DNA of 64,000 nt from assembly GCF_014641635.1 (NCBI RefSeq), contig NZ_BMIC01000004.1:1-64000 (forward strand). Direction: 5' to 3'. Positions 2,757 to 52,283 of this stretch are shown in pieces; positions within the stretch are counted from its first letter, which is position 1, and each line of letters begins with the position of its first letter. The translations under genes and the position numbers were made by a program. Below the pieces are notes generated by a model that worked only from the letters and a program-made list of their open reading frames with translations, was not told the DNA's origin and did no database searches. This DNA is from Aquaticitalea lipolytica (GTDB lineage Bacteria; Bacteroidota; Bacteroidia; Flavobacteriales; Flavobacteriaceae).

Positions 2757-5700
2757 TTATTTTATAATAATCTTTTTGGTTTCTGTTCTTAATCCATCAG
2801 TAACATTAATTATATACATTCCTGATTGAACATCACCTAATCTAATTACTTGATTAAAGTTTCCATTATTAGTATAACGATTATTAAATACTTTTCTACC
2901 TCTTATATCATATACATTAATTCTAATATCATCTCCAGAGTTAGAATTTAGCTTAACCGTAAACTCTCCGTTGTTTGGATTAGGGAAAATTGAGAAAGCA
3001 GAAAACTCATTCTCTTCAACACCTAAAGATCCTTGCACACATAAATCAAGTCTAAACTCATTTATTGAACCTCCATCTAAATTAAAATTATCTCTTACTG
3101 TTAATGTCCAATTTCCAGCAGACATTTCTCCATTTATTGTAGATAAGTTTCCTTCTGGTCTAAATGTTCCTGTATAAGGAGGAGACCCAGCAGTAATCAA
3201 TGTAGCAGCACTTTGGTCGAAAAGAGTATTAGTAAAATTATCACCACTTCCTCCATTCCCTGAAGACAAGTCAACAACTGTTCCATTAGGACTAGTTAAA
3301 GAAATATCTAAATCTGAAACATATGTATGAGGTATATTAATTCTTACGTTTACGTCTGTAACAGGAAAGTTTGGTGCAATGTTAATTACAGATGTATAGG
3401 TATTAGCTCCTGAAGGTGAAATTGCTATTGGAGTATCTGTAGCTGTATAAGATGCACAAGTAACATTCTCGGTTGTAAAACTAAATACACTAGATGCTGC
3501 TGCAGTTGCACAAGTATTAGAAGCTGTTACTCTCCAATAATATTGGGTATTTGCAGATAGTGATGTTGTATATGTGGTGTTTGTTACTGTAGCTGAATTA
3601 ACAATATTAGTAAAAGCTGCGTCTGTAGCAACCTCTACTAAATAGTTTTGAGCATTTGCAACTGAGTTCCATGTTAAATTCCCAGCAGCTGGTACATTTG
3701 TTGCGCCATTTGCAGGAGTAGCTAAAGTCGCTGCAGCTAATGAATTACTAAACACATTTAAAGTTACATTTGTTGTTTTTGTTGTTGATGTAGCCGTCCC
3801 TACTGCTGTAATTGTATAATTACCTGGAGCTACAGAACCAATATTAGAAACCGTCATAGTAACTGGAGTCCCATCTGCTGAAGCAGATGTTGGTGAAAAC
3901 GTTACGTTTGCACCTGCAGGAACATTAGTTGCTGAGAATGTTGTTGTTTCAGAAAACCCATTATATGCATTATATGTAAAATTATAAACTGCATTATTTG
4001 GTTGACAAACAGTAACATTAGAAGATGCAAAATTCATCAAAAATTCAGTTGTTTGAATTTGAAAGTTTGAGCTATTTGCTGCAAAAAAGATATTATTAGC
4101 TCCTTCAACAATAATACGTGCTTGTGAAGTTACATTGTTTGGTACTGTAACATTATAAGATCCATTATTAGGAACATTAGATGCTAAAACTATTGGAAAG
4201 GTTAATCCACCATCTGTTGATAATAATATATTAACATTTGCTGTATTTACTGGAGCAACATTTGTATTTGCAACATTCCAAGTCACTGTTTGAGATGAGC
4301 CTACAAACCAAATCACATTAGATGTTTGTGATGTTACAGTAAAGGGTCCTGATGCTCCATCAACTGTAATTCGCATCAAATCAAAACTAGTCTGACCGTT
4401 CAATCCAGTTGCAGTAGGTTGTCTATCCCTAACTGTTAAAGCCCAATTCATAGTTCTTGCAACACTAGGAACAGTTTCCCAAGCCGAATTAATCGTTGGG
4501 TTTGTTTGTGTTAGTTGCCCTGCAATTACTCTACTCAATCTTGGAATATATCTGTTTGGAGAAGTTGTTGGAGGTAAAGATCTATTCATTGATCCAGATG
4601 TAAGGGTTGGTCCAAAATTAGTATTTGTTACATTTCCTGAATCTGTTTGCTCCCAACAATACCTAAGTACATCACCAGCATTGGCGTCTGTGGCAGAACC
4701 TCTTAATACATATGCCGTCCCTCTTGGAATAACATAATCACTTCCAGCGTTTGCAACAGGAGGGCTATTTGTAATTACTCCTGGCGAATTACTTTGCCAA
4801 CAAGTTCTTGTAACTAATCTATTTAAGATTTGATTTATACTATGATAATGAAAATACGGATCACTATGTTGTTGAACGTTATTCGCTCCTGTAATACCTG
4901 CGTAAGCCATTATTGTAGAACCACTTCCAGGCTCAGCATTCACTCCAGTACCTTCTGTATTAAAAGCAAATGTATGATTGGCACCCATTTGGTGACCTAT
5001 CTCATGAGCTACATAGTCAATATCAAAATTATCACCTGCAGGAATACCGTCAGCAGGTGAAGTAATACCAGCTCCTTTATTTAAATCTGTAGTAGAAGCA
5101 GTATCATCAACACAAACACAACCAATACATCCTGCATTCCCACCACCTCCAGAGGCGCCAAACATATGTCCAATATCATAAAATGCATTCCCAATAACAT
5201 TAGTTAACGTATTTTGAAGCTGTAAATTCCAGTCACCTAGGTTTGTTGAATAGGGGTCTGTATTAGCATTTGTATAGATAACATTTGTAGTTTGAGCAAT
5301 AACAATAAAAGTTACTGCCATATCAGTTTCAAATGTTTCATTAACTCTAGTTATAGATGCATTTATAGCTGCTAAAGCTCCAGGAACAGTTCCTCCATGG
5401 TATGTTGTATATTCCCCATTTGTAGATACTACTAATCTAAACTTACGCAATGTTTGATCATTTGCATCTCTATTAAGTAATGAAGAGTCTAAATTTGACT
5501 CTTTAGAAAACTCATCAATTGTGGCGCAATGAAAATCTTCAGTATAATTATCTCCTCTAACTAATCTATTATATACAATATAATTTTGAGGGTCTCCATT
5601 TACTGGTTGCATAAACACAGTTGGTTTATCTAAATAGCTTATCATAGTTTGTACTCCGCTTGGAGAAACACTCATACGTAATCTTGTACCAGAATCATTA

Positions 5701-6047
5701 ACTCCAACATAGGATTTAATGTCTGGAAATTGTGCTGAAAGTTCTGCATCAAAAACTGGTGCTTCCAACATTCTAAATGTTTCTAAAACACCTTCTTCAT
5801 TAGGAACATTAATAAATGTTGTAGATACTTGATTACTTTCTCTTAAAGGCGCATTAACTAATGCTTGCCTAAATGCTTCGAAGTCTAATTGAAATACTTC
5901 GTAGTGTTTTTCATTCAATTCACTAATCGGTATTGTATTCAAACTTCCATTTGAGGTGCTTTTTTGCCAAAATTTTGTCTGACCGAAAACAGAAAATCCA
6001 ATTAATAAAACTGCTAATGTAAAAACATAATGTAGTTTTGTTTTCAT
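2757..6047 (-). CDS. Secreted metzincin (reprolysin-like) protease with P domain and T9SS sorting domain
   Basis: A 1096-residue exported zinc protease. A signal peptide (about 1-22, ending FSVFGQ) is followed by a propeptide-like region. The catalytic domain has HEIGHQMGANH (zinc ligands H348, H352, H358; base E349) and a Met-turn STIMAY (M380), the signature of metzincins close to M12B. Next come Ig-like regions, a fibronectin III-like segment (about 770-855), a proprotein-convertase P domain (about 865-1004) and a type A T9SS C-terminal domain (1018-1096, FPNPNNGEF to KKIIIK). The protein would cross the outer membrane by type IX secretion and lose or anchor through this tail. Its natural substrate is unknown; a nutritional role in degrading extracellular protein is inference. 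Confidence 0.93.
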   Translation of the reverse strand: MKTKLHYVFTLAVLLIGFSVFGQTKFWQKSTSNGSLNTIPISELNEKHYEVFQLDFEAFRQALVNAPLRESNQVSTTFINVPNEEGVLETFRMLEAPVFDAELSAQFPDIKSYVGVNDSGTRLRMSVSPSGVQTMISYLDKPTVFMQPVNGDPQNYIVYNRLVRGDNYTEDFHCATIDEFSKESNLDSSLLNRDANDQTLRKFRLVVSTNGEYTTYHGGTVPGALAAINASITRVNETFETDMAVTFIVIAQTTNVIYTNANTDPYSTNLGDWNLQLQNTLTNVIGNAFYDIGHMFGASGGGGNAGCIGCVCVDDTASTTDLNKGAGITSPADGIPAGDNFDIDYVAHEIGHQMGANHTFAFNTEGTGVNAEPGSGSTIMAYAGITGANNVQQHSDPYFHYHSINQILNRLVTRTCWQSNSPGVITNSPPVANAGSDYVIPRGTAYVLRGSATDANAGDVLRYCWEQTDSGNVTNTNFGPTLTSGSMNRSLPPTTSPNRYIPRLSRVIAGQLTQTNPTINSAWETVPSVARTMNWALTVRDRQPTATGLNGQTSFDLMRITVDGASGPFTVTSQTSNVIWFVGSSQTVTWNVANTNVAPVNTANVNILLSTDGGLTFPIVLASNVPNNGSYNVTVPNNVTSQARIIVEGANNIFFAANSSNFQIQTTEFLMNFASSNVTVCQPNNAVYNFTYNAYNGFSETTTFSATNVPAGANVTFSPTSASADGTPVTMTVSNIGSVAPGNYTITAVGTATSTTKTTNVTLNVFSNSLAAATLATPANGATNVPAAGNLTWNSVANAQNYLVEVATDAAFTNIVNSATVTNTTYTTSLSANTQYYWRVTASNTCATAAASSVFSFTTENVTCASYTATDTPIAISPSGANTYTSVINIAPNFPVTDVNVRINIPHTYVSDLDISLTSPNGTVVDLSSGNGGSGDNFTNTLFDQSAATLITAGSPPYTGTFRPEGNLSTINGEMSAGNWTLTVRDNFNLDGGSINEFRLDLCVQGSLGVEENEFSAFSIFPNPNNGEFTVKLNSNSGDDIRINVYDIRGRKVFNNRYTNNGNFNQVIRLGDVQSGMYIINVTDGLRTETKKIIIK

Positions 6048-6123
6048 AATATTACTTTTGTTAATTATATAAGCTATAAAATTAAGTTTTTTTTAGTAAA
6101 AACTAGCTAGACTTCAATTTTTT

Positions 6124-7044
6124 ATGAAAAAAAATATCAACTTCACAAACTATAATAACAGTAACGCTACTATTGTCACTATTGGCACTTTTGATGGTGT
6201 TCATATTGGGCATCAAAAAATTATTAAAAGATTAGTTGATATTGCTCATAAAAAACATTTAAACTCTGTTGTGCTTACTTTTTTCCCGCACCCAAGAATG
6301 GTGTTGCAAAACAATAATGATATTAAGCTTTTAAACACTATTGAAGAACGTGAAACAATTTTATCTGATTTAGGCTTAGACTATTTAGTTGTTAAAACGT
6401 TTACTAAAAAATTTGCAAATCTTTCAGCCGAAGAATTTGTTAAAAATATACTAGTTGATAAATTAAATGCTAAACACATTATAATAGGCTATGACCATCG
6501 TTTTGGTAAAGGCAGAAGTGCAAATATTGATGATTTAAAGAGTTTTGGAAAGCAGTATGATTTTGAAGTTGAAGAAATATCTGTTCAAGACATTGAAGAT
6601 GTTTCTGTAAGCTCTACCAAAATACGAATTGCGCTTAATGATGGAGATATATTAACCGCCAACACTTATTTAGGGTATAGTTTTTATATCACAGGTAAAG
6701 TAGTTAAAGGCAAAGGATTAGGTAGAAAAATAGGATTCCCGACAGCTAACTTAGAGATAGCTGAAGATTATAAACTTATACCAAAAAATGGCGTTTATGT
6801 GATTAAAACATCAATTGAAAACAAGTTAGTTTATGGCATGATGAACATAGGCATGAACCCAACTGTTAATGGAACAAAGAAAACTATTGAAGCTCATTTT
6901 TTTAATTTCAATAATGATATTTATAATCAAACATTAAAAATAGAATTCGTAGCTAGACTTCGTGATGAGCAAAAATTTGAATCTGTTGAGTTACTTAAAA
7001 AACAACTAAAGCTTGATGAAAAAAATGCAAAAGTTTTTATTTAA
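6124..7044 (+). CDS. ribF: Bifunctional riboflavin kinase/FAD synthetase
   Basis: It phosphorylates riboflavin to FMN and adenylates FMN to FAD. The N-terminal adenylyltransferase domain (about 15-180) shows TIGTFDGVHIGHQ (19-31) with the nucleotidyltransferase GxHxGH-type motif, and SSTKIR near 160. The C-terminal riboflavin kinase domain (about 185-306) shows GRKIGFPTANLE. The 306 residues match the family. The 3' end overlaps the start of the HTTM gene, so the two may be translationally coupled. Confidence 0.96.
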   Translation: MKKNINFTNYNNSNATIVTIGTFDGVHIGHQKIIKRLVDIAHKKHLNSVVLTFFPHPRMVLQNNNDIKLLNTIEERETILSDLGLDYLVVKTFTKKFANLSAEEFVKNILVDKLNAKHIIIGYDHRFGKGRSANIDDLKSFGKQYDFEVEEISVQDIEDVSVSSTKIRIALNDGDILTANTYLGYSFYITGKVVKGKGLGRKIGFPTANLEIAEDYKLIPKNGVYVIKTSIENKLVYGMMNIGMNPTVNGTKKTIEAHFFNFNNDIYNQTLKIEFVARLRDEQKFESVELLKKQLKLDEKNAKVFI

Positions 7045-49056: not shown

Positions 49057-49452
49057 ATGAAAAAAGACATTCAAATTCCAAAAGTTGAAGATGTTTATGT
49101 TGCAGTGGTTTATGAGTATAATGATATTTATAAAACCAACGATTGGAATGCCTACATTATTAATGATAAAGATGTCGATTTAGATGTTGTACTTATTGTA
49201 ACCAGTGGTTATTCTGATAAAAAAATGACGTCTATTTTCAGAAAAAAACTAGACCATCTTCCTAAAAAAAGCTACGCTAAAATTGAGCTAATGCAAGAAG
49301 ATTTGTTTGCATTAAACAACGAATTTAAAGTTACTTTTTTTGAAGGCAACACTATGTTTGAAAAAACATATTTGTTCAGAAAAAACACTATTAACGAGCG
49401 TGCTTTGCAAACCATTCCTTTAATGAAAGTAAAGGGTGTTTTGGTGAAGTAA
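49057..49452 (+). CDS. Conserved protein after pheS
   Basis: A 131-residue cytosolic protein, 3 nt after pheS. It has alternating beta-like segments (VEDVYVAVVYEYNDIYKT; LDVVLIVTSGYSDKK; FKVTFFEGNTMFEKTYLFRK). I recall it directly following pheS in other flavobacteria, with no family or function known to me. Its stop lies 4 nt from the convergent 49-aa ORF's stop. Confidence 0.75.
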   Translation: MKKDIQIPKVEDVYVAVVYEYNDIYKTNDWNAYIINDKDVDLDVVLIVTSGYSDKKMTSIFRKKLDHLPKKSYAKIELMQEDLFALNNEFKVTFFEGNTMFEKTYLFRKNTINERALQTIPLMKVKGVLVK

Positions 49453-49456
49453 CAGA

Positions 49457-49606
49457 TTAACGCTTAATAAGAGATGATAAATTTTTAATCATTAAAGTAT
49501 TATTGTGAGCTTTAAGATTTACAGTGTTCTCTCTAGATTTCATAGTTGCTGATTTAGCAACGGTTGTCTGTTTTGGGGTTAATTTAATTACTTTATTGGT
49601 TTTCAT
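49457..49606 (-). CDS. 49-residue basic protein coupled to the dCTP deaminase gene
   Basis: ATG at 49606 and TAA at 49457-49459 define a 49-residue frame (MKTNKVIKLTPKQTTVAKSA..., ending SSLIKR). It has 10 Lys and 2 Arg against one Glu and no Asp, so it is strongly basic. Its start lies inside the last codons of the upstream deaminase gene (14-nt overlap, ATG...TAA), the usual sign of translational coupling. It is too short for ordinary gene calls. It could be an inhibitor or cofactor of the deaminase, or a chance frame. AvcI inhibitors described for AvcD deaminases are RNAs placed upstream, so this is not the same arrangement. Confidence 0.55.
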   Translation of the reverse strand: MKTNKVIKLTPKQTTVAKSATMKSRENTVNLKAHNNTLMIKNLSSLIKR

Positions 49607-51209
49607 TTTTAGATGATAATTGGTCTATTCGGTCTTGTATTCTTTTAGATGCTTGTATTTCTCTATAAAAAAGTGCTTGTAAAGATAAGCTATTAATAGG
49701 TTGTAATTTTGATTTATCTCTATTCTGACATAACGATTTTCCAGAAATTTTATTTTTTCTTGAGCGATTTTTATTAAAGAAAGATAAGTATTTTTTTGGA
49801 GAAATCCCTTCAAACATCAAAATTTGTACTTTGTCATTCTTTGAATCTTTTGTTAAGATAGTATCGTCAGTTATGGAATCACTATGTAAATCTATCCCTT
49901 TACTTTTAATGTAAGGCTCAATATAATAAAGCTTTATAATTCCTGCAGCAATTATATGTCTAACACAATTATGACATGGATATGTAGTGCAGAATAATGT
50001 GCTTCCTCTTAATTTAACACCATTTAAATTAGCCGCATTGAGAATAGCATGCATTTCCGCATGTACTGACCTAGAAAATTCAATAAGAGTTTTTATCGAT
50101 GAACTTAATAAAACTTTATTCAAAACATTTAATATTTTACTTTTCTCTAAATCATCGGAAACAACTTTATCTATTTTTGCTTTAAAATCGTCTAATATTA
50201 CATTTCTTATGTTCTCTTTGTTAGAATCATTAAAACATTGACCTTTAATATAACATCTATTGTCAATTTTAGATTCGTGTGTATATAAATTCCCTCCATA
50301 TTTAGGAACGTCATTCCAGCCAACTGATATTAACTCATCTTCATTCGAAATTATAGAAGCTCCAACTTGTCTAGAGAGACAAGCAGAATTTACAGAAGCA
50401 GATTTTGCCTCATACATAGCTCTTTCTTCAATTGTAGGTGTAATGAGTTCGTTCTCAAAAATTATATTTGTAAATCTTTCTATTTTACTTTTAATCTCAG
50501 TTTCATTTTTTTTATCTACTTTAATAAAAAAATCTGCATCCACATAAACTTCTCTAACTTGTTGACCACTTTCTTTAAATTCCTGATACTCATCAATGTT
50601 TATTATTTCTATGGCCTCATTTTTAGCTATATTAGGAATTGAGATGTTTTGAATTCGTTCTGAACGTGGTGTAAAAACACTAATTAAATAAAAGGCATCA
50701 CCATAAATATCTCTTAAAGCATTTAATTCTTCTTTATGTTTAATAGAATCAATTATGTAGCATTTTCTTTGCGAAGAAATATTAGAAAAATCTTTTTCCC
50801 CACTAATTTTGAAAATTTCCATTTTTGAATTTGCTATTTCTGAAACAGACAGATTTACGAGATAATCTTTCCCATAAATTTCTCTTAAATGATTTCCTTT
50901 TTCAATCTTCCTAACAATAGTATTATATCCAGATGTTTTGTCTTGAGAGTCATTATATTTAAAATTAGGAGCATCAGCATCATCAATATGCTTACTTAAT
51001 TTTAAATCCATGAATTCATAACCATATGATTTCAATTCGGATTTCAAGGCTTTAATGACTAAATCTTTTTTTGCTCCAATTTGGGAGCAAATGCCTAAAA
51101 CTAGTTCAGATGTATGAGTTTCTTTAACTCTTTCAGACGTGGTTTTGTCTGAGTTTTTTGAAATTTGATTATCTGAAGACTGATTATTTAATTTTCTTGC
51201 AATACTCAT
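49593..51209 (-). CDS. Anti-phage dCTP deaminase (AvcD-like)
   Basis: A 538-residue two-part protein. The N-terminal region (about 33-190) resembles the degenerate P-loop-like domain of antiviral deaminases (ELVLGICSQIGAKKDLV). The zinc deaminase domain (about 260-450) has HAE (H383, E385) and PCHNC (C412, C415), the zinc-ligand set of cytidine/dCMP deaminases. In known homologues phage infection switches the enzyme on, depleting dCTP/dCMP for phage DNA synthesis. The C-terminal 65 residues are an added Lys/Ser-rich tail. It lies between pheS and gpsA in otherwise housekeeping DNA, and overlaps the 49-aa ORF. Only 72 nt separate it from gpsA, leaving little room for an upstream RNA inhibitor. 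Confidence 0.88.
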   Translation of the reverse strand: MSIARKLNNQSSDNQISKNSDKTTSERVKETHTSELVLGICSQIGAKKDLVIKALKSELKSYGYEFMDLKLSKHIDDADAPNFKYNDSQDKTSGYNTIVRKIEKGNHLREIYGKDYLVNLSVSEIANSKMEIFKISGEKDFSNISSQRKCYIIDSIKHKEELNALRDIYGDAFYLISVFTPRSERIQNISIPNIAKNEAIEIINIDEYQEFKESGQQVREVYVDADFFIKVDKKNETEIKSKIERFTNIIFENELITPTIEERAMYEAKSASVNSACLSRQVGASIISNEDELISVGWNDVPKYGGNLYTHESKIDNRCYIKGQCFNDSNKENIRNVILDDFKAKIDKVVSDDLEKSKILNVLNKVLLSSSIKTLIEFSRSVHAEMHAILNAANLNGVKLRGSTLFCTTYPCHNCVRHIIAAGIIKLYYIEPYIKSKGIDLHSDSITDDTILTKDSKNDKVQILMFEGISPKKYLSFFNKNRSRKNKISGKSLCQNRDKSKLQPINSLSLQALFYREIQASKRIQDRIDQLSSKNENQ

Positions 51210-51281
51210 AAATTGTATGAAATTTTCCTACAATAATAATTATTTATTTTGAATATCAGCATTTTAAGCCCTAAACTATAA

Positions 51282-52283
51282 CTAATCCAACTTATCGGTC
51301 AATTTTTTAAACGTTATTTTAGGGTCTTTCCCTTCATATAAAATGCCATAAACTGCCTCTATAATTGGTAATCGTGTTTTCTTTTTATTCTTTTCATTTA
51401 ACTGATGAGCACTTTTAGTGGCATAATAACCTTCGGCAACCATACTCATTTCCATTTGTGCAGATTTTACTGTGTAACCTTTACCAATCATATTACCAAA
51501 CATTCTGTTGCGAGAAAACACAGAGTAACCTGTAACAAGCAAATCGCCTAAATACGCAGAGTTGTTAATGTTGCGTTTCATCTTGTGCATCTTTTTAATA
51601 AAACGCTTCATTTCTCTAATTGCATTACTCATCAATACACTTTGAAAATTATCTCCATAACCTAATCCGTGAGCAATACCAGCAGCAATAGCGTAAATAT
51701 TTTTAAGCATTACTGCATATTCAGTACCTATAATATCGTCACTGATTTTGGTTTTTATATAGTCGCTAGATAAGTTTTTGGCAATGTCTTTTGCTTTTGC
51801 AGCATCAGCACAAGATATTGTTAAATATGATAAACGCTCTAAAGCTACCTCTTCAGCATGACAAGGTCCAGCTATAACAGCAATATTTCCAAAAGGCACA
51901 TTATATATATCATGAAAATGTTCGCCAAGTAGTTTGCCAGATTCTGGTAAAATTCCTTTTACTGCAGATACAACTGTTTTCTCTTTAAGATCAATTGTTA
52001 TTTTATCTAATTCATCTTGTATAAAAGCCGATGGTATTACAAATATTAGTACATCTGCGTAGGCTGCAATCTCATTAATATCATTGCTTAACTTTAATTG
52101 TTTTGTATTAAATTCAACCGAACTCAAATAACTTGGGTTATGCTGCTCTTTTAATAAATGCTCTTTAATGTAAACACTACGCATATACCATCCTACTTCA
52201 TCTAAATTTTCACATAACATTTTTACTATAGCAGTTGCCCAACTTCCAGACCCAAAAACAGCATATTTTACTGACTTACTCAT
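51282..52283 (-). CDS. gpsA: Glycerol-3-phosphate dehydrogenase [NAD(P)+]
   Basis: It reduces dihydroxyacetone phosphate to sn-glycerol 3-phosphate for phospholipid synthesis. The Rossmann motif FGSGSWATA (10-18) is at the N-terminus; KNIYAIAAGIAHGLGYGDN contains the catalytic Lys region. The 333 residues are normal. It shares the minus strand with the deaminase downstream; a -7 element precedes it. Confidence 0.96.
   Translation of the reverse strand: MSKSVKYAVFGSGSWATAIVKMLCENLDEVGWYMRSVYIKEHLLKEQHNPSYLSSVEFNTKQLKLSNDINEIAAYADVLIFVIPSAFIQDELDKITIDLKEKTVVSAVKGILPESGKLLGEHFHDIYNVPFGNIAVIAGPCHAEEVALERLSYLTISCADAAKAKDIAKNLSSDYIKTKISDDIIGTEYAVMLKNIYAIAAGIAHGLGYGDNFQSVLMSNAIREMKRFIKKMHKMKRNINNSAYLGDLLVTGYSVFSRNRMFGNMIGKGYTVKSAQMEMSMVAEGYYATKSAHQLNEKNKKKTRLPIIEAVYGILYEGKDPKITFKKLTDKLD

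Follow-up and report, generated by a model that had tools for sequence, protein, structure and literature searches.

The gene for a putative anti-phage dCTP deaminase in Aquaticitalea lipolytica appears to form, together with a 49-aa basic ORF that overlaps its end, a self-contained two-gene anti-phage module. We put at roughly one in two the probability that the small protein is the dedicated regulatory partner of the deaminase, most likely binding the enzyme and inhibiting it until infection. The DNA analyzed, called the window hereafter, is a stretch of 64,000 nucleotides from contig NZ_BMIC01000004.1, and the features discussed are collected in Table 1. A known enzyme family has here a second component that is unannotated and widely found.

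Table 1. Coordinates of the deaminase module and its surroundings in the window.
Feature	Position	Strand	Basis or remark
Anti-phage dCTP deaminase (AvcD/NF041025 family), 538 aa	49593-51209	-	ORF call, NF041025 and PADLOC dCTPase
HAE zinc/catalytic motif, residues 383-385	50055-50063	-	Invariant in 8-row alignment
PCHNC zinc motif (PCxxC), residues 411-415	49965-49979	-	Invariant, 8/8 aligned rows
P-loop-like stretch GICSQIGAKK, residues 39-48, N-terminal part	51066-51095	-	Aligned position
Basic ORF of 49 aa, the partner; treated as a divergent small-partner family member	49457-49606	-	ORF call, position, similarity to L034
14-nt overlap between the end of the deaminase gene and the beginning of the small ORF	49593-49606	-	ORF coordinates
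72-nt leader, gpsA to deaminase	51210-51281	-	Coordinates
gpsA	51282-52283	-	72 nt from deaminase
131-aa ORF	49057-49452	+	Between the deaminase/small-ORF pair and pheS
Insert of ~1.82 kb, missing from the same-genus relative G001 (locus L121)	49460-51281		blastn of L121 against the window

The identity of the enzyme as an AvcD-type deaminase, proposed in the initial annotation from the HAE and PCxxC motifs, is borne out. Both motifs are present and the protein scores 453.2 bits against the NCBIfam model NF041025 ('anti-phage dCTP deaminase'), above the curated cut-off of 400, and 508.5 bits against the dCTPase model of PADLOC. Within the P-loop-like stretch it has Ala where the seven other aligned rows show Ser or Thr. 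Action on dCTP or dCMP and protection against phages are known for the family and predicted for this copy. A Foldseek search with the model of a homologue (locus L033, not the window protein) retrieved dCMP deaminases and, lower, the adenylate-kinase-like structures 3h0k and 3lw7, whose matches appear to cover the N-terminal part of that model. When profiles were run over solved chains (E up to 0.001, 7 sequences) the matches were confined to the deaminase domain. The surroundings are largely as first described: the 14-nt overlap and the short leader were both confirmed, and the placement between pheS and gpsA is right except that the 131-aa ORF intervenes between the pair and pheS, which lies beyond it on the plus strand.

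The deaminase and the small ORF arrived, with the leader, as one unit. In the comparison with the same-genus relative, whose site is empty, homology stops at 49459 and restarts at 51283, within the gpsA stop codon; 17 nt of the relative are unmatched between the two homology blocks, so that ~1822 nt have been added in place of 17 nt. At this empty site 23 nt separate the stop of the 131-aa ORF from the stop of gpsA. The insert has a GC content of 27.5% (31.6% for the window) and, since it consists of leader, deaminase and small ORF, any restraint on the enzyme that came with it must sit inside these three elements. Its left junction is the stop codon of the small ORF, given which the very end of this ORF may or may not have been shaped by the insertion. 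The 131-aa ORF is present in 21 of 40 genomes, its own included, and seven of the ten relatives with both this ORF and gpsA in the fetched locus have 0-73 nt between the two stops; the remaining three have 470, 757 and 1193 nt, holding unrelated ORFs. This convergent junction, occupied by other, unrelated ORFs in L120, L127 and L128, is perhaps a recurrent insertion spot. Another shared spot is suggested by L003 and L004, where the same kind of gene, which from its N-terminus we take to be hemB-like, adjoins the deaminase upstream.

For the known members of the family, the available sections of two papers describe deamination of dCTP and dCMP, phage defence and a restraint by AvcI, the RNA antitoxin of the AvcID system, described as non-coding, which is lost once transcription stops (PMC10511110, PMC12409362). 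The minimum length of AvcI is given as ~171 bases in the sections available of PMC10511110, and the window has only 72 nt between gpsA and the deaminase. There is therefore no room for such an RNA upstream, and we have counted this for a protein partner. The leader itself has no notable RNA fold (z 0.33) and no Rfam match at gathering. Over the whole window Rfam recovered only one tRNA and a Flavo-1 RNA, both far from the module, and a single sub-threshold snoRNA match within the module was disregarded. The Flavo-1 RNA (RF01705; 14960-15038, minus strand; 58.2 bits, gathering 42) is a known flavobacterial RNA.

The strongest of the first observations turned out to be the pairing itself. The 49-aa product has no match in NCBIfam, Pfam or PADLOC at E up to 1, and its position is what repeats: an ATG ORF of 46-85 aa was found at the deaminase stop in all 12 intact homologues with more than ~40% identity, the window included, and so the ORF is neither absent nor broken beside close homologues, an outcome that had been set down beforehand as a refutation. 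The test required an ATG ORF of 40-100 aa starting from -25 to +10 of the deaminase stop, and four of the 12 loci (L052, L067, L068 and L069) were retrieved or inspected only once the pattern was known. As background, among ORFs of 150 aa or more such an ORF is seen at one of 50 ends in the window, namely the 49-aa ORF itself; other loci have it at 8 of 170 ends, and Markov sequence gives 1.8%. A chance ORF is ruled out by 12 of 12 against this null of 2-5%. The frame in which the small ORF begins, relative to that of the deaminase, varies between homologues.

A thirteenth relative, Flagellimonas amoyensis (L034), is the nearest to the window pair, with a best segment 54% identical to the window deaminase; no near relative was found. 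Its deaminase gene is split by an insertion at ~5371-6579 of the locus, with ORFs that by eye look transposase-like, and an intact small ORF lies directly behind the end of the split gene. The window ORF resembles this small ORF over its length (local score z 4.97, with 0 of 2000 shuffles equally high), and their ends lie no more than a few residues apart. The kinship of the window copy to the small-partner family is suggested by this similarity and by its position, and its layout also matches; it is the third shortest among the 13 Bacteroidota ORFs listed, and it is missed by the family HMM. Inspection by eye showed no such ORF beside seven distant Bacteroidota homologues (L005, L006 and L039-L043; 26-30% identity over most of the match), nor beside L049, L053, L054, L056, L057 and L059. 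The small partner is not universal across the wider deaminase family.

The combination of deaminase and small ORF extends, all the same, well beyond Bacteroidota, as seen in loci sampled from plasmid, E. coli, IMG/VR and genome sets (among viral contigs a single-protein query gave no relative, whereas alignment queries did). A tree of 50 deaminases contains a clade of 21 rows (support 93/86) with a downstream ORF in 21/21, one of them doubtful; 19 had been called before the tree, L099 is the doubtful one and the ORF of L044 (QLELPI) was found after it. In a second clade of 17 rows (100/98), made up of enteric and vibrio sequences and their relatives, a comparably long ORF lies close upstream of the deaminase in all 13 rows whose upstream DNA can be seen. 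Twelve of these were called before the tree and L092 afterwards, and L091, L095, L096 and L097, in which the contig starts at the deaminase, were not judged. The upstream ORF is also found in L098, outside the tree. The class of partner tracks the deaminase tree, with 9 changes against a shuffled mean of 26.1 and 0 of 200 shuffles equally low. In yet another clade the overlapping downstream protein is an unrelated one of ~175 aa (L058, L084, L108 and L110, and also L112 outside the tree); its fifth tree row, L109, has no such downstream ORF.

The downstream and upstream small ORFs appear to be akin. When an HMM of 19 downstream ORFs was run against 1868 ORF segments of upstream-class loci, the upstream small ORFs took ranks 1-4 and 6-8, and in the reverse search downstream ORFs took ranks 1, 3, 4 and 7 of 3577. 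Taken singly, the E-values are weak, those of the four top-ranked upstream ORFs being 0.011-0.13. A third search covered the loci of the window and of L034 (1259 segments); there the L034 ORF ranked 16, the window ORF fell outside the top 25 and a decoy segment reached E 0.004; because of this decoy single E-values of the HMM are not trustworthy, and it is the ranking that we have used as evidence. A comparison of the two profiles with hhalign was also weak (P 0.011, probability 3.9%), and the blind ranking is the better evidence for kinship, weak as its single E-values are. The family seems to share three elements: at the N-terminus a strand-like motif, in the middle one resembling V-[VI]-x-[LF], and at the C-terminus a helix (seven small-only rows, misplaced by MAFFT, were removed from the structure alignment). 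It had been suggested at first that in this lineage control may have shifted to the small protein. This found no support: similar ORFs occur through much of the family and also upstream, in the position of AvcI. Both positions look old, and judging from these distributions the partner is apparently no local replacement for the AvcI RNA antitoxin.

Selection at the codon level was assessed by Fisher's test on non-synonymous against synonymous changes in six pairs of the small-ORF family. Four pairs have significantly fewer non-synonymous changes (p 0.007 or less), so that a lack of codon-level conservation, the other outcome that would have spoken against the partner, was not what we found. They are the downstream pairs L002/L067 (dN 0.156, dS 0.531, p 5e-4) and L076/L078 (p 1e-10, dS saturated) and the upstream pairs L047/L061 (p 0.001) and L064/L088 (p 0.007). 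The other two, L055/L081 (p 0.051) and L045/L111 (p 0.12), lean in the same direction, short of significance. For L032/L033, L033/L068 and L068/L069 dN/dS is ~0.37-0.51 (no significance test was applied), and the near-copy pair L064/L065 has three changes in total. Between the window copy and L034 synonymous sites are saturated, because no nearer relative was found, so the evidence of selection comes from the other pairs of the family.

The regulator reading follows from the pairing, the overlap, the co-insertion, the selection seen in the family and the occurrence of broken deaminases beside intact partners. The last situation is found in L034 and L081 and is expected if the enzyme is the costly part. 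The 49-aa protein would be made by translational coupling from its overlapping start and would bind the deaminase, keeping it inactive; infection would disturb this complex and release the enzyme, as happens with the AvcI RNA for AvcD, and the freed deaminase would then deplete dCTP and dCMP, as is known for the family. AlphaFold2 models of read-through fusions of L033 and L076 left the small protein unplaced, with no confident docking to the deaminase and pLDDT block means for the small protein of 30-47 (L033) and 31-77 (L076). Weighing against the reading are also the failure of the family HMM to score the window copy, the two of six codon pairs that are not significant and the absence of the partner in part of the wider family. 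In L085 (2305-2490) the upstream small ORF is stopped early at codon 45 (44 aa) beside an intact deaminase, while its near copies L086, L087 and L064 keep the full ORF, a case that speaks against a protein inhibitor being strictly essential in that locus. Besides, AvcD of V. cholerae is activated by rifampicin and not by spectinomycin, according to the sections available of PMC10511110, and this suits a labile RNA better than a short-lived protein.

A motif near the N-terminus of the partners opens a different, bolder reading. Downstream partners often open with QLSLEF, QLEFDF, QLELDF and similar stretches. Motifs of the QLSLF type are the textbook sliding-clamp-binding motif of bacteria; DinB, UmuC and Hda are sliding-clamp-binding proteins, and DinB and UmuC are established to bind the clamp through such motifs. 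In a strict form (QLx[LFI]x[FLI] or QxxLF within the first 60 residues) the motif is present in 19 of 25 downstream partners, the window among the 25, against 8 of 433 background ORFs and a mean of 0.37 of 25 (maximum 3) in the residue-shuffled downstream set. L099 and L101 were counted in this set despite a weak middle motif, and L113 despite a frame-broken deaminase. All five of the ~175-aa partners examined have it near the N-terminus (QLSFNL, QLSLF, QGMLF, QALLF and QGLLF), followed by a further domain. The host genome provides a yardstick: its DinB ends in exactly QLKFEF and a UmuC-like protein has QLNLF (loci L136 and L137 for the two), both resembling the partner motif. Along these lines, the partner could tether the deaminase to the sliding clamp (DnaN), acting at replication forks or sensing phage replication, rather than or besides inhibiting the enzyme. 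We consider this somewhat unlikely, although it is the boldest reading to survive and is compatible with an inhibitor. The window copy has KVIKLTP in place of the motif, which is missing also in L034 (VISVEF), L035 and L077, is present only in a loose form in L099 and L101, and occurs in 0 of the 12 upstream-class ORFs. L109, in the same clade as the ~175-aa partners, is without their downstream ORF. The motif was first noticed in the very downstream set in which it was later counted, only the ~175-aa partners and DinB having come afterwards, and a strand of alternating hydrophobic residues, pairing with the deaminase, could give a similar pattern. The nearest clamp-related system that we have found, a pneumococcal toxin that binds DnaN (PMC12795458, from the sections available), is a different thing.

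The published role of AvcI as an RNA antitoxin (in the available sections of PMC10511110 and PMC12409362) invites a further reading, namely that the region of the small ORF acts as an AvcI-like RNA element, with a reading frame that is a by-product or of secondary importance. Between the upstream small ORF and the deaminase of L092 and L098 stands a terminator-like hairpin, which would yield a short separate transcript, and L085 retains the RNA but not the full ORF. We find this reading improbable, in view of the codon-level selection in four of six pairs on both sides of the gene and of the C-terminal residues, which are kept despite the varying frame, with respect to the deaminase, in which the ORFs begin. 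Rfam at gathering, in seven related loci, gave only RNAI (plasmid replication), in L047 and L061, two small plasmids. The short transcript of L092 and L098 would serve as AvcI-like RNA and as small messenger at once, and such a dual-function RNA would reconcile the codon conservation with the published RNA results. That the window ORF is a mere remnant, decayed or truncated by the insertion junction and leaving the deaminase without a working partner or itself dead, is very improbable: the junction does coincide with the ORF's stop codon and the copy is short, without the clamp motif and unscored by the HMM, but the closest homologue ends near the same place and is alike over its length, and the deaminase frame and zinc motifs are intact.

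The deaminase of the ETEC H10407 plasmid p58 (L055) has an upstream-class small ORF in the position of AvcI. ETEC AvcID is among the published systems in the sections available of PMC10511110, and p58 presumably carries it. A small ORF inside AvcI may have been noticed or tested already in the founding papers (Hsueh 2022, Tal 2022). Our literature search, which covered titles and the beginnings of abstracts and did not extend to these two papers, returned nothing that deals with a protein partner for the deaminase or with a clamp motif within it. The founding work may have reported a start-codon test, and that of Tal and colleagues reportedly dealt with single-gene anti-phage dCTP deaminases. 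The window enzyme belongs to the family of the latter (NF041025, PADLOC dCTPase), above the curated cut-off, but differs in having a coupled partner that no NCBIfam, Pfam or PADLOC model matches. With AvcID of V. cholerae, V. parahaemolyticus and ETEC it shares the deaminase family, and AvcID has a known restraint by a neighbouring element; that element is an RNA described as non-coding, whereas in the window it is a coding ORF, downstream and overlapping, with 72 nt upstream. As in type II toxin-antitoxin pairs, the genes overlap (by 14 nt here; all 12 loci, the window included, have an ORF at the stop), a small basic protein lies beside a toxic enzyme and the two are mobile as a unit, but the partner matches no known antitoxin family and its inhibitory role is our inference. 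The resemblance of the downstream partners to DinB, UmuC and Hda lies in a sequence motif, QLxLxF/QxxLF near the N-terminus in 19 of 25, and the window copy does not share it.

A broader scheme, which we offer tentatively as possible rather than probable, is that the clades with downstream, upstream and ~175-aa partners are all two-component systems of enzyme and partner. The downstream form would dock on the sliding clamp, reporting on replicating DNA or bringing the enzyme to it; the enteric and vibrio AvcI transcript would also be the messenger of a homologous small protein; and the lineage of the window would have kept the partner and lost the clamp motif. As to what keeps anti-phage dCTP deaminases harmless and what turns them on, the printed answer that we found rests on RNA in a few vibrio and ETEC systems. 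A conserved coding partner that flanks the gene on one side or the other, and in enterics stands in place of an antitoxin described as non-coding, together with a clamp-type motif in most downstream members examined, is a concrete alternative or addition that is cheap to test, and the motif offers a testable link between the deaminase partner and replication. If this is true, the published AvcI constructs merit another look to see whether they yield a translated product, and the defence-gene models now in use annotate just half of a two-gene system.

Other arrangements exist on separate branches. L060 (a Vibrio nigripulchritudo plasmid) and L062 (a gut phage contig) belong to a separate deaminase branch and have a different small ORF at or just past the deaminase stop, the two sharing a VE-x-WP-x-WKQE stretch. 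The deaminases of L054 and L062 are ~590 aa long, and the additional stretches at their N-termini resemble each other by eye (GSYEEIKAML.. and GSFEELKKKL..).
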